This document shows positions 4,241-34,346 of a stretch of DNA of 64,000 nt, one piece after another (within the stretch, counting starts at the first letter, position 1; the number at the start of each line of letters is the position of its first letter). Below the pieces are notes generated by a model. It had not been told where the DNA came from and did no database searches. It saw only the letters and a program-made list of their open reading frames with translations. The position numbers and the translations under genes are program-made. The stretch comes from an uncultured Prevotellaceae bacterium. GTDB taxonomy: Bacteria > Bacteroidota > Bacteroidia > Bacteroidales > Bacteroidaceae. Location of the stretch: NCBI GenBank assembly GCA_947169115.1, contig CAMVOK010000001.1:186001-250000 (forward strand). Direction: 5' to 3'.

Positions 4241-5566
4241 ATGGCTAAAAAAGGAAGTTTGAAAAGCACCCTGGCGGTGTCTCTCAACAACTATCTCGAT
4301 GCGGGTGCCATTGTAGCAGGAGCCAGCGGCATAACGCTATGGAAAAACTACTTAGGACTGAGTGAAATGCACCTTGGTTGGCTCAATGCCATCAGTGCCA
4401 ACGCTTTGGGAGCTGCCATCGGTGCCATCATCGGCGGTTTTCTTGCCGACAGGTTCGGACGCAAGTTTATCTTCACGTACAACCTGTTGGTGTACATGTT
4501 GGGAGTGTTGATAATCATGTTTTCTGTCAATTTCCCGATGTTGCTCTGCGGTTTCCTCATTACTGGCATATCTGTTGGCGTAGGTGTGCCAGCTTCGTGG
4601 ACATACATATCCGAGAGTTCGGAGGTTAACAACCGTGGGCGCAATATCTGCATCTCTCAGATGTCATGGGGTGTAGGCCCTATGGTGATTCTACTTTTTG
4701 GTATGTTCTTTGCTCCTGGTGGATATCTGTATGATATAGTAGAATCGTTGGCTCACACTGTTATTGGTGCAGATGCAGCTATTGCAGCCGTAGAGGTATT
4801 CAGTTCTCGTGTGGTTTTCTTTACCCTCTTTGTTGTTGCTTTCATTGCTTGGAACCTGCAACGCCAACTGGAGGAAAGTGCCGAGTTTAAAGCAAACAAG
4901 GAGGAGAAGAAGAGTGGCATTGTGGAAAACATCAAAGTGTTGTTTACCAACAAGATTGCAGTTAAAACTGTTGCGTTCCTTGCCATCATCTACCTCACAT
5001 GGAACCTTGTGGCCTCTGTGATGGGTTTCTTCCTGCCTCATATTTATGAGACGGCTGGTGGCGTAAGTAACGAGCAGGCTAACTGGCTGAGTTGTGTCCT
5101 GTGGTTCTGCACTGTTGTTACCACGGCAGTTCTTTCTAAGTATATAGACCGCACAAGTCATAAGTTCATATATGTACTTGGTCTGCTCATAGCCATATCA
5201 CCTTGGGCTATGGTTGTCAGTACAGGTATCGGCAGTACGACCTCTCTTTGGGCCTTTGCAATACTGTGGGGTATCGAAGGAGGTCTGAGTGTACAGATAT
5301 TTTATGCACTGTGGGGCAGTGAGCTGTTCCCTGCAAAGTTTCGTGCTGGTGCCCAAGGCTTGATGTTCTTCCTTGTTCGGGGCTTGTCAGCAGTATGGGG
5401 ACTTGTCTTCACCTACATCTACGGTGAAAATGGTGAGGGCTTCACCCTTGCTGCATGGTGCATGATTGTTCTGCTGTTGCTCTCCCTCATCGTAGGTGTG
5501 ATAGGTGCTCCCAACACACGGGGAAAATCGCTGGAGCAAATCACGATGGAAAGATATGGGGAATAG
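4241..5566 (+). CDS. MFS transporter, sugar-porter type
   Basis: 441 aa hydrophobic; 'GGFLADRFGRKFIF', 'WGSELFPAKFRAGAQG'; within the rhamnose operon. Confidence 0.85.
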   Translation: MAKKGSLKSTLAVSLNNYLDAGAIVAGASGITLWKNYLGLSEMHLGWLNAISANALGAAIGAIIGGFLADRFGRKFIFTYNLLVYMLGVLIIMFSVNFPMLLCGFLITGISVGVGVPASWTYISESSEVNNRGRNICISQMSWGVGPMVILLFGMFFAPGGYLYDIVESLAHTVIGADAAIAAVEVFSSRVVFFTLFVVAFIAWNLQRQLEESAEFKANKEEKKSGIVENIKVLFTNKIAVKTVAFLAIIYLTWNLVASVMGFFLPHIYETAGGVSNEQANWLSCVLWFCTVVTTAVLSKYIDRTSHKFIYVLGLLIAISPWAMVVSTGIGSTTSLWAFAILWGIEGGLSVQIFYALWGSELFPAKFRAGAQGLMFFLVRGLSAVWGLVFTYIYGENGEGFTLAAWCMIVLLLLSLIVGVIGAPNTRGKSLEQITMERYGE

Positions 5567-5606
5567 CCCCTACCCCTTAACCCTCCCCGAGGGGAGGGAG
5601 TATATA
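5565..5606 (+). repeat. REP-like dyad, copy A1
   Basis: AGCCCCTACCCCTTAACCCTCCCCGAGGGGAGGGAGTATATA with CCCTCCCC-GA-GGGGAGGG hairpin, overlapping the MFS stop codon; resembles the reverse complement of 5683-5722. Confidence 0.75.
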
Positions 5607-5655
5607 CACACATAAAGAATCATAAAAGATAATAAACATCTAAATCTATTTTATA

Positions 5656-6528
5656 ATGAATATCACACAATCTTCAAACGCAACTACTCCCCTCCATCGG
5701 GAGGGGCAGGGGGGTGGGGTCTCTATATTGGAAGGCCGCCCCGCACTGAGGGCTGAAGTAGAAAAAGTGGCCGAAGTGGCTGGATACCTCTGGCAAAAGG
5801 GATGGGCCGAAAGAAACGGTGGCAACATCACCGTGAACGTAACAGAATATATCGACGATGAGGTACGTCAGATGCCAGCTATTGGTCCTGTGACCCCCAT
5901 CGGACTAACCTTGCCCCACCTGAAAGGGTGTTACTTCTATTGTAAGGGAACGAACATGCGTATGCGCGACCTTGCCCGTCGTCCGATGGAGAACGGCAGC
6001 ATCATCCGCATCCTCGATGATTGTGCTTCATATGAGATGATAGCCGACAATCCTGTGCGTCCTACCTCGGAACTGCCCAGTCATTTGGCTGTACACAATT
6101 ATCTTTTGGCAAAGGGTTCGCCCTATCGTGCCTCCGTACACACCCATCCCATCGAGCTCGTGGCTTTGACCCACAGCCAGAAGTGGATGAATAAGGATGT
6201 GGCCACACGTATGCTCTGGTCGATGATTCCCGAAACGAAGGCTTTCTGTCCTCGTGGCTTGGGTATGGTGCCCTACATGCTGCCCAGTAGCACAGAACTG
6301 GCCGAGGCTACCATCCGCACCATTGACGACGATTACGATGTAGTGATGTGGGAAAAACACGGTGTTTTTGCCGTTGATGTTGATGTAATGGCTGCCTTCG
6401 ACCAAATTGATGTCCTCAACAAGAGTGCACTCATCTACATCCAGAGTCGTGCTCTCGGCCACGAGCCAGAAGGTATGAGCGACGAACAAATGGCAGAAAT
6501 GAGTCGTGCGTTTAATCTTCCGAAATAA
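5656..6528 (+). CDS. rhaD: Rhamnulose-1-phosphate aldolase
   Basis: 290 aa; 'GYLWQKGWAERNGGNITVN', 'TSELPSHLAVHNYLLAKGSPYRASVHTHPIELVALTH'. Confidence 0.95.
   Translation: MNITQSSNATTPLHREGQGGGVSILEGRPALRAEVEKVAEVAGYLWQKGWAERNGGNITVNVTEYIDDEVRQMPAIGPVTPIGLTLPHLKGCYFYCKGTNMRMRDLARRPMENGSIIRILDDCASYEMIADNPVRPTSELPSHLAVHNYLLAKGSPYRASVHTHPIELVALTHSQKWMNKDVATRMLWSMIPETKAFCPRGLGMVPYMLPSSTELAEATIRTIDDDYDVVMWEKHGVFAVDVDVMAAFDQIDVLNKSALIYIQSRALGHEPEGMSDEQMAEMSRAFNLPK
5683..5722 (-). repeat. REP-like dyad, copy B1, inside the rhaD N-terminus
   Basis: ACTACTCCCCTCCATCGGGAGGGGCAGGGGGGTGGGGTCT; hairpin CCCCTCC-ATC-GGGAGGGG; inverted relative to A1; encodes TTPLHREGQGGGVS. Confidence 0.75.
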
Positions 6529-8641: not shown

Positions 8642-8703
8642 TAATTCAATGCATAATTCATAATTCATAATTCACAATGCATAATTCACAATTCACAATT
8701 CAT
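8642..8703 (+). repeat. Heptameric tandem array (AATTCAC/AATTCAT, AATGCAT variants)
   Basis: AATTCAT AATTCAT AATTCAC AATGCAT AATTCAC AATTCAC AATTCAT, running into the next start codon. Confidence 0.85.
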
Positions 8704-8911
8704 GATGGATAATTGCGAATACGACGATATCATAAACTTGGAGCACCCGACTTCGAAGCGTCATCCGCGTATGACGATGATGCAACGTGCTGCTCAGTTT
8801 ACCCCCTTTGCCGCCCTCAATGGGCATAGTGAAAGCATAGGGAATGCGGCTCAGCAGTGGGAACAGTTGCATGACCATGCAGACACGGGATGCGCTGAAT
8901 TACCCGAATAA
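8702..8911 (+). CDS. YolD-like small protein
   Basis: 69 aa; 'SKRHPRMTMMQRAAQFTPFAALNGH' matches the remembered YolD pattern (RPRMs..eRAAQFaPFAALtGy). Confidence 0.65.
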   Translation: MMDNCEYDDIINLEHPTSKRHPRMTMMQRAAQFTPFAALNGHSESIGNAAQQWEQLHDHADTGCAELPE

Positions 8912-10157: not shown

Positions 10158-11174
10158 ATGAAGGAAACGTTACTTGGTAAGACCCTTGAAGAACTGCGCC
10201 CCGTGGCTGAAGCTACGGGGCTGCCACGTTTCGCGTCGGGGCAGATAGCGCAGTGGATATACCAGAAAGGGGCAACCTCTATAGACGAGATGACAAATCT
10301 CTCCAAACAGGGACGCGAACAACTGAAGGAGCGCTATGAGGTGGGACGACGCGAAGCCACGCTTTGCCAGACCTCTGTTGATGGGACAAAGAAGTATCTG
10401 TTCCCGACAGGAAACGGACATTTCATAGAGTCTGTCTTTATCCCTGACGGAGATAGGGCTACACTATGTGTAAGTAGTCAGGTGGGCTGTAAGATGGGCT
10501 GCCGGTTCTGTATGACGGGTCGGCAGGGATTCGAGGGGCAACTCACTGTGAATGACATCTTGAACCAAATATATTCCTTGCCCGAATGGGAGCAACTGAC
10601 AAACATTGTTTTCATGGGGCAAGGCGAGCCTTTCGATAATTTGGACAATGTGCTTAGGGCAACGGAGTTGTTGACCGTATCGTATGGCATGGCATGGAGC
10701 CCGAGGCGCATTACGGTAAGCACTGTAGGACTGAGGAAGGGTATGGAACGTTTCCTGCGTGAGAGTCAGTGCCATCTTGCTGTTTCCCTCCACAATCCTT
10801 TCCCTATACAACGGGCCGAGATGATGCCAGCCGAGAAATCCTTTTCTCTTACGGAATTCCTTCCACAATTGGCGCAGGAAGATTGGGCAGGACAACGGAG
10901 ATTGTCGTTTGAGTATATCGTTTTTGAAGGACTGAACGACACCAAGGCACATGCCAAGGAACTGGTGCGCTTGTTGGCACCGCTCCATTGCCGGGTCAAC
11001 CTTATCCGTTTCCATACCATTCCCGATGCGCCTTTCCGTGGGGCAGGGGAGGAGACGATGGTTCGCCTGCGAGACTATCTGTCACACCATGGGGTGACTG
11101 CTACCATACGTGCCAGTCGGGGGGAGGACATCATGGCAGCTTGTGGACTACTGAATACGCAGAAAACAAACTAA
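10158..11174 (+). CDS. rlmN: 23S rRNA (adenine-C2)-methyltransferase, radical SAM
   Basis: 'CVSSQVGCKMGCRFCMTG' radical SAM motif, 'NIVFMGQGEPFDNLDNVLRA'; ATG at 10158, alternative TTG at 10149. Confidence 0.95.
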   Translation: MKETLLGKTLEELRPVAEATGLPRFASGQIAQWIYQKGATSIDEMTNLSKQGREQLKERYEVGRREATLCQTSVDGTKKYLFPTGNGHFIESVFIPDGDRATLCVSSQVGCKMGCRFCMTGRQGFEGQLTVNDILNQIYSLPEWEQLTNIVFMGQGEPFDNLDNVLRATELLTVSYGMAWSPRRITVSTVGLRKGMERFLRESQCHLAVSLHNPFPIQRAEMMPAEKSFSLTEFLPQLAQEDWAGQRRLSFEYIVFEGLNDTKAHAKELVRLLAPLHCRVNLIRFHTIPDAPFRGAGEETMVRLRDYLSHHGVTATIRASRGEDIMAACGLLNTQKTN

Positions 11175-11210
11175 AGACCCACCCTAACCCTCCTTGTGAG
11201 GGAGGGAATG
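11174..11210 (+). repeat. REP-like dyad, copy A2
   Basis: AAGACCCACCCTAACCCTCCTTGTGAGGGAGGGAATG abutting the rlmN stop codon; inverted relative to 11273-11317. Confidence 0.75.
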
Positions 11211-11244
11211 GTTACAAATAAAGCTGAAGAGTAAAAACAAGAAT

Positions 11245-12336
11245 ATGAATACAATAGACAATCTGCGGACGTATATACTCCCCTCCCTCACATGGAGGGG
11301 GTGGGGAGTGGGTCTCTTCTTATTGCTCCTCGTCTCTTGTCAAAATGGTCATCTGGCCACCCCTTCGGCCAGTGGACGACCCTATGAAGTCCTCGTCGTG
11401 ATGGATAAAGATGCTTGGGATGCTCCCGAGGGACGTGCCCTCTTCGATGTTCTCGACACTGACATCCCTGGTTTGCCACAGCCCGAACGGTCGTTCCATA
11501 TTTCCCAAGTGGCTCCCAAGGATATGAACCGAACGCTCAGCATCTTCCGGAATATCATAGAGGTGGATATCGATCCCACGGTGTACACCACCACACGCAT
11601 GAAGTTCGTGCGTAATGTGTATGCCCGTGACCAGGTCATCCTGCGCATACGGAGCAACTCGAAGGAGGCTTTTGCTGAGTATGTTGCAGAACATGGTCAG
11701 GACATCATAGACTTCTTCACAAAGATGGAGATAAACCGCCTGTGTAAGGATTTGAGTAGAAAATACTCCAAACTGACTTACGACTTGGCTCAGGAAATAT
11801 TTGGCTGCGAACTCCGTGCCCCCGAGGAACTAAAGAACTACAAAAGAGGCAAGGACTTTTTCTGGACTACCAATAATACTCCGACAGGTCAGGTCTGCAT
11901 GATGATGTATGCCTATCCCTACGAGGGACCTGAGACATTCAATAAACGGTACATCCTCCACAAGCGTGATTCGGTGTTGCGCATCAACATGCCTGGTTCC
12001 GACCCAGATATGTACATGCAGACTGATACTGCATTTACCGATGTGCGTCCCATTGTTGTTCATCATAAGTATGCCATGGAAGCCCGTGGCCTTTGGTATA
12101 TGAGGAACGATGCCATGGGCGGTCCCTTTGTGGCCCATTTCCGAGTAGATACTGAGAACAATCGTGTGGTAGTCGTGGAAGGCTTTGTCTTTGCTCCTGA
12201 GAAAATGAAACGAGGACTGATGCGACGCATGGAGGGTGCTCTCTACATGCTTTTGTTGCCAGAGGAACAGGCAAGTGAGATAGAAACATCGCTTGAGGAG
12301 GAAACGGACACTTCTACCGATGATTCCCACAAATAA
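11245..12336 (+). CDS. DUF4837-family lipoprotein
   Basis: 363 aa; lipobox-like 'FLLLLVSCQ'; 'PYEVLVVMDKDAWD...IFRNIIEVDIDP'. Much of the signal peptide is encoded by repeat copy B2. Confidence 0.75.
   Translation: MNTIDNLRTYILPSLTWRGWGVGLFLLLLVSCQNGHLATPSASGRPYEVLVVMDKDAWDAPEGRALFDVLDTDIPGLPQPERSFHISQVAPKDMNRTLSIFRNIIEVDIDPTVYTTTRMKFVRNVYARDQVILRIRSNSKEAFAEYVAEHGQDIIDFFTKMEINRLCKDLSRKYSKLTYDLAQEIFGCELRAPEELKNYKRGKDFFWTTNNTPTGQVCMMMYAYPYEGPETFNKRYILHKRDSVLRINMPGSDPDMYMQTDTAFTDVRPIVVHHKYAMEARGLWYMRNDAMGGPFVAHFRVDTENNRVVVVEGFVFAPEKMKRGLMRRMEGALYMLLLPEEQASEIETSLEEETDTSTDDSHK
11273..11317 (-). repeat. REP-like dyad, copy B2, inside the DUF4837 signal-peptide region
   Basis: ATACTCCCCTCCCTCACATGGAGGGGGTGGGGAGTGGGTCTCTT; reverse complement resembles A2; encodes YILPSLTWRGWGVGLF. 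Confidence 0.75.
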
Positions 12337-34088: not shown

Positions 34089-34346
34089 ATGACTATCCGC
34101 AATCGTACCACCAAAGCCCAAAGGGCTGACAAGAATACAGGCAGGGGTAAAACCCCTGCAAAAAAGAGCAATAACGTTAGCCCTGTAATCGGACGCGTAG
34201 CTACGTTTGCTGTGCAAGAAGGGGCGACAGACTATTCTGTCACCCCTTTGGGGTTTACATTCTGTGTGTATCTCAGCAGGGGCTTCACCCCTGCCTGTAA
34301 TCTGCGACCCTTTCAGGGTTTTGGTGGTACAATTGCGGATAACCAT
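34089..34346. mobile_element. MITE-like nested palindromic element
   Basis: Terminal inverted repeats ATGACTATCCGCAATCGTACCACCAAAGCCC / ATGGTTATCCGCAATTGTACCACCAAAACCC; internal mirrored GCAGGGGtaaaACCCCTGC and GCAGGGGcttcACCCCTGC, central GGGGCGACAGactattCTGTCACCCC; no plausible gene. Confidence 0.7.

Follow-up and report, generated by a model that had tools for sequence, protein, structure and literature searches.

A REPIN-like inverted repeat pair bridging rlmN and a DUF4837 gene, and its probable co-option into a predicted lipoprotein signal peptide

The repeat pairs at rlmN–DUF4837 and rhaD

We analyzed the junction between rlmN and a DUF4837 lipoprotein gene in the genome of an uncultured Prevotellaceae bacterium (an assembly of 2.74 Mb in 39 contigs, 87% complete), together with the surrounding 64,000 nucleotides, referred to here as the window. 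Its closest relatives, likewise uncultured, are Bacteroidaceae/Prevotellaceae genomes sampled almost entirely from the rumen or gut of ruminants (goat, yak, deer, buffalo and others). Repeat halves were located with a covariance model, R1, trained on 32 copies. The features of this junction, and those of a comparable pair at rhaD in the same window, are as follows:

10158–11174, plus strand: rlmN, with RlmN_N and radical SAM domains (Pfam PF21016 and PF04055, open reading frame, orthologues)
11172–11218, minus strand: REP half A2 (covariance model R1, 41.5 bits)
11219–11268, plus strand: AT-rich spacer with the ATG start codon (11245–11247) of the DUF4837 gene (sequence, open reading frame)
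11269–11318, plus strand: REP half B2 (covariance model R1, 56.8 bits; hairpin 11280–11300; translation)
11245–11340, plus strand: predicted lipoprotein signal peptide MNTIDNLRTYILPSLTWRGWGVGLFLLLLVS followed by C (by inspection)
11245–12336, plus strand: DUF4837 lipoprotein gene (PF16125, E = 3.7e-104)
5563–5611, minus strand: REP half A1, upstream of rhaD, providing the TAG stop of the preceding gene (covariance model R1)
5678–5724, plus strand: REP half B1, within the rhaD N-terminus (ATG at 5656; MNITQSSNATTPLHREGQGGGVS) (covariance model R1)

Both A2 and B2 are copies of a ~49-nt palindromic repeat, placed in inverted order with their G-rich tails directed outward. The hairpin of A2 occupies 11188–11206, with its tail (GGGTGGGTC) running outward to the left, and the arms at 11188–11206 and 11281–11299 are 95% complementary. 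These complementary arms, and the covariance-model matches at both halves, bear out the inverted REP-like pair that a first-pass annotation had proposed from the letters of the sequence. That annotation had also placed A2 against the end of rlmN, and the TAA stop (11172–11174) indeed lies at the model edge of A2 and adjoins it. The resulting RlmN C-terminus, NTQKTN, is ~3 residues shorter than the NTAKTNNEI found by orthologue comparison in relatives without the element. The ATG at 11245 is 24 nt upstream of the model edge of B2 (28 nt upstream of the B2 start assigned earlier), and B2 is translated as TYILPSLTWRGWGVGL. The window contains 6 matches to the core pattern of the repeat where 1.0 would be expected (0 of 100 shuffles), and a search of Rfam with the repeat returned no family at E ≤ 0.1.

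The layout at rhaD is the same as that at rlmN–DUF4837, as had been remarked, with the B half read in a different frame at each locus (TTPLHREGQGGGVS at rhaD). At two further loci (L237 and L220), AATTATGAATTATG arrays upstream of rhaD yield N-termini such as MNYELN. Elsewhere in the window, positions 34132–34303 hold another dimer-like element, an inverted pair (GCAGGGGTAAAACCCCTGC and GCAGGGGCTTCACCCCTGC) in which each member is palindromic and the two are 116 nt apart; an intergenic AT-rich tandem repeat of 14 nt (CATAATTCACAATG type) occupies 8647–8716.

Placement of the repeat across the genome and its relatives

With 150 of 1028 candidates scored, the covariance model recovered at least 140 halves from the genome (2.74 Mb), and 86 fetched loci contained 189 full-length halves. 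Adjacent halves had their tails pointing outward 63 times and inward once. There were 67 tail-outward pairs, with gaps mostly of 35–85 nt, and 45 of them bridge co-directional genes. The upstream half adjoins the stop codon in 36 of these 45, its outer edge lying −7 to +2 nt from the stop (P ~2e-20 against a uniform placement over an assumed 60 nt), and the repeat edge often forms the stop itself (TGACCCC, TAACCCC, TAGACCCC, TAAGACCCC). REPs near stop codons in E. coli can reportedly stall translation, in work ascribed to Liang et al. in 2015. In 27 of the 45, the second half lies ~7–13 codons into the next reading frame and the start codon is in the spacer, as an in-frame ATG 9–57 nt (mostly 20–40) before half B; most of the remaining bridging pairs have an ATG directly after the tail. 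About 11 further pairs lie wholly within one reading frame. The paired copies that the first-pass annotation proposed to look for are thus numerous, and their positions relative to stops and starts are far from random.

The same annotation had attributed tolerance of the element near start codons to several of its frames lacking stops. B2 has no stop in any of its three frames; across the repeat family all three are open in 29% of copies versus 20% of random 49-mers, and it is only weakly true that the repeat is unusually stop-free. Entry of the dimer as a unit at tight junctions, supplying both a stop and a start, is a better reason for tolerance.

Conservation of the spacer was detectable for ~12 nt beside each hairpin and no further, and the likeness of halves within pairs was not above that between pairs (permutation p ~0.10). 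Halves sorted into families by loop formed a mixed table, and this grouping was not used. A strict pattern for one subfamily, present in 15 of 49 congeners and in 0 of 32 other families, was too narrow to compare copy numbers across the genus.

The clearest comparison of empty and filled sites came from lysS/gpsA (genes named by homology). In four close congeners the two genes overlap, as GTGGACAGAATA^GGTAAGATAG (longer gpsA-side stretch GGTAAGATAGC), and in the present genome, G001 and G062 a dimer of ~130–150 nt, whose spacer contains an ATG, occupies precisely the position of the caret. None of these three filled sites has a target duplication; ~8 nt were lost in the present genome and none in G062. 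The pseudouridine synthase-like, gcvPA-like and RND-like junctions measure 12–24 nt in some congeners versus 142–152 nt here. Most other compared junctions in close relatives were short and native (12–70 nt) or held other dimers, dimer remnants or unrelated inverted repeats. Element-free relatives with near-contiguous or overlapping genes, of which lysS/gpsA is the best case, indicate that the dimer and its spacer act as one unit, carrying in both a stop and a start. In gpsA, the L172 gene and rhaD the native start codon has disappeared, and the start in the spacer is therefore needed there. The native leader (~20–45 nt including the old ATG) is missing at rhaD and DUF4837, suggesting that a deletion accompanies or follows insertion. 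Since spacers are conserved only for ~12 nt beside the hairpins, arrival of the start codon with the element is less sure for many copies. The lysS/gpsA junction of G021 (L254) is filled by another kind of palindromic insert, apparently accompanied by a 12-nt target duplication (GTGGACGGAGTA).

For the DUF4837 junction, 69 distinct orthologues were labeled by covariance model and by eye: 17 carry the G-rich REP, 8 an AT-rich inverted repeat and 44 neither. Presence of the REP requires at least 13 changes (gains or losses) on the tree of the 69 proteins. At the same junctions, relatives (L285, L297, L294, L047, L082, L095 and L099) also have unrelated inverted repeats (of CACAGATT, ACGAATTACACG, GAGAATGA and GAAAAATGAAAAGTG types) flanking the start codon, and some of these repeats encode the signal peptide.

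Predicted signal peptides read from half B

The full N-terminus of the DUF4837 protein, MNTIDNLRTYILPSLTWRGWGVGLFLLLLVSC, has basic residues at R8 and R18, a strong hydrophobic core (KD9 maximum 3.3) and a lipobox (LVSC), and by inspection it displays the basic n-region, hydrophobic h-region and lipobox cysteine of a lipoprotein signal peptide. Residues 9–24 of this predicted peptide come from B2. The repeat had earlier been described as forming the core that leads into the lipobox, a description that stands in part: B2 encodes YILPSLTWRGWGVGL, spanning the n-region and the opening residues of the h-region, whereas the LLLLV run and the cysteine belong to the host-coded FLLLLVSC that comes next. 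Comparison with orthologues lacking the element, which had been suggested as a check, showed these to have short signal peptides of an ordinary type, for example MKRIGLLLVLAMLVLTGC.

A REP half occupies the equivalent position in four further lipoproteins of the present genome, namely a Big_5 protein (L177), a PD40 beta-propeller (L186), an Omp28 protein (L152) and an FKBP-domain protein (L148). One frame, ending G-V-G-[LVP] before the core, is used in 5 of 5 lipoproteins versus 3 of 22 other N-terminal halves (Fisher p = 7e-4); the frame TPLPREGQGGGV is mostly used in cytosolic proteins. The L177 lipoprotein has a REP-coded signal peptide in G000, G017, G028 and G062 and a native one in G001, G014 and G021, while in G026 its signal peptide comes from a different repeat (LRELSHFLILSFSHFLIFSC). 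At the DUF4837 junction of G016, the repeat is not picked up by the model any more and the frame HIFPSLGWRGWRVGF is still intact, which fits selection on the peptide and not on the palindrome. This recurrence in other lipoproteins and other species argues for the co-option as signal peptide that the first-pass annotation had suggested, at the level of predicted peptides.

Origin of the pairs, alternatives and related repeats

We consider it likely that A2/B2 is a REPIN-like, non-autonomous mobile element that bridges the stop and the start, with B2 co-opted into the predicted signal peptide. Such an element consists of two inverted palindromes, tails outward, around a variable AT-rich spacer of ~35–85 nt. 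Comparison shows dimers of this kind entering tight co-directional junctions as a unit, with similar dimers at the same junctions in some congeners and not in others. Once filled, a junction would have its upstream gene terminated by the outer edge of half A, the start codon in use provided by the spacer, and the N-terminus (~20 amino acids) of the downstream protein read in frame from half B. At rlmN–DUF4837, the insertion may have taken the place of ~23 nt including an old stop/start overlap, and B2, in the frame YILPSLTWRGWGVGL, would give a basic n-region and the entry into the h-region, with remaining native residues completing the peptide.

If A and B were instead independent single REPs, A would be a 3′ end hairpin following stops, B would simply lie near starts, and the spacer would be native leader. 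Single halves do exist (those at gene 3′ ends likewise adjoin the stop in 11 of 22 cases), one locus (L069) carries half B alone, and spacers are variable; we nonetheless regard independence as quite improbable given the near-strict tail-outward pairing (63:1, mostly 35–85 nt apart) and the contiguous A and B flanks at empty lysS/gpsA sites. A role as functional RNA, in which an A:B stem with the start codon in its loop tunes downstream translation or coupling and the coding by B is incidental, draws on the prediction that A2 and B2 pair with each other over a long range (−61 kcal/mol, z −5.4) and leave the start codon unpaired in the loop, and on the unrelated inverted repeats found at the same place in relatives. 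Such folding is, however, common to any inverted repeat, pair-specific complementarity is not beyond chance, and presence is patchy, with many gains and losses; this reading seems unlikely to us.

B2 might also go untranslated, with the DUF4837 gene beginning at a downstream GTG or TTG. Codons of both kinds occur within and just past B2, and caution about N-terminal REPs has been published (PMC3733652). Starting at the downstream GTG or TTG would, however, shorten the signal peptide to an implausible 11 or 7 residues, none of them basic, the native start codon has been lost in gpsA, the L172 gene and rhaD, and the frame of half B is matched to export (p = 7e-4). We therefore disfavor a downstream start, which the first-pass annotation had named as an outcome that would contradict it, and judge it very improbable.

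The repeat class itself is known, namely REPIN-like dimers, with coding insertion as in Rickettsia palindromic elements. REPINs are REP doublets that form hairpins (Bertels and Rainey 2011, PMC3116915), and the present pairs resemble them in having inverted short palindromes ~70–110 nt apart, a predicted single long hairpin, hundreds of copies and a spacer less conserved than the ends (PMC3116915). Inverted pairs at short distance occur here above chance (63 versus 1), and movement of the doublet as a unit is indicated by the contiguous lysS/gpsA flanks, with further junctions consistent. Described REPINs are extragenic and tied to RAYTs, whereas the present doublet brackets a start codon and appears to be read as coding sequence. 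Neither a RAYT nor any other Y1 transposase turned up in the present genome (87% complete), which has no PF01797 match; among congeners, 18 of 61 have PF01797 above the cut-off (~8 of them strong), with no R1 repeats near it at ten fetched loci. These observations do not support a RAYT as mobilizer.

REPs with GTAG/CGTC tags (2013, PMC3733652) likewise form head-to-head dimers with stop-providing ends, some of them intragenic and many N-terminal. The conserved tag is missing from the present repeats (GTAG at 28 of 189 inner feet, CGTC/GACG at 3 of 189 outer ends), and whereas that study deems most N-terminal REPs probably untranslated, translation of the present repeats appears strongly implied by their reading frames. 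Rickettsia palindromic elements (Ogata et al., as described in PMC10969869 and PMC3733652) are ~100–150 bp of palindromic mobile DNA lying in frame in protein genes. They lie within ORFs, whereas most present copies reach from one gene's stop to the start of the next, to which they give a start codon and N-terminus. In-frame insertion into ORFs of functional proteins is seen here in 27 N-terminal and ~11 internal pairs, a likeness to the Rickettsia elements in placement.

The stop/start-bridging placement, the carried start and the recurrent capture as signal peptide are new to us, and in the openly accessible literature we came across neither REP-coded signal peptides nor dimers placed around a start codon. 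Empty and filled sites show a genome parasite invading packed operons without killing genes: the invader supplies the upstream stop and the downstream start, and its own sequence joins the protein. Signal peptides accept almost any basic-then-hydrophobic sequence, and they look like an easy birthplace for new coding sequence, of which the present genus offers repeated cases. The repeat also accounts for unusual predicted N-termini in this rumen genus, TPLPREGQGGG being one example, and is relevant to how start sites are annotated and signal peptides predicted in genomes of this kind.

More tentatively, start-flanking inverted repeats could be a general and recurrently re-invented device of the genus, acting as portable stop-start cassettes. 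Unrelated families (G-rich REPs, CACAGATT repeats, and GAAAAATGAAAAGTG and GAGAATGA arrays) would on this speculative reading occupy one place: one arm would lie at the upstream stop, the loop would hold the start codon and the second arm would encode the N-terminus or signal peptide. If true, such cassettes free overlapping operon genes from their coupling and change the sequence of signal peptides.

REP dimers also occur in frame inside long ORFs, in the manner of Rickettsia palindromic elements (L186:3899–3999, L181:1301–1449, L196:1251–1347 and L209:1301–1501). Six identical copies of a related repeat are present in G000 (C2:57717, C5:67674, C5:76632, C5:79126, C12:46329 and C29:27271; L140, L157, L158, L185 and L215), with a near-identical AT-rich inner flank (ttaaattgtcactattag) and often partnered by another repeat type; they are probably the youngest, non-coding dimer.
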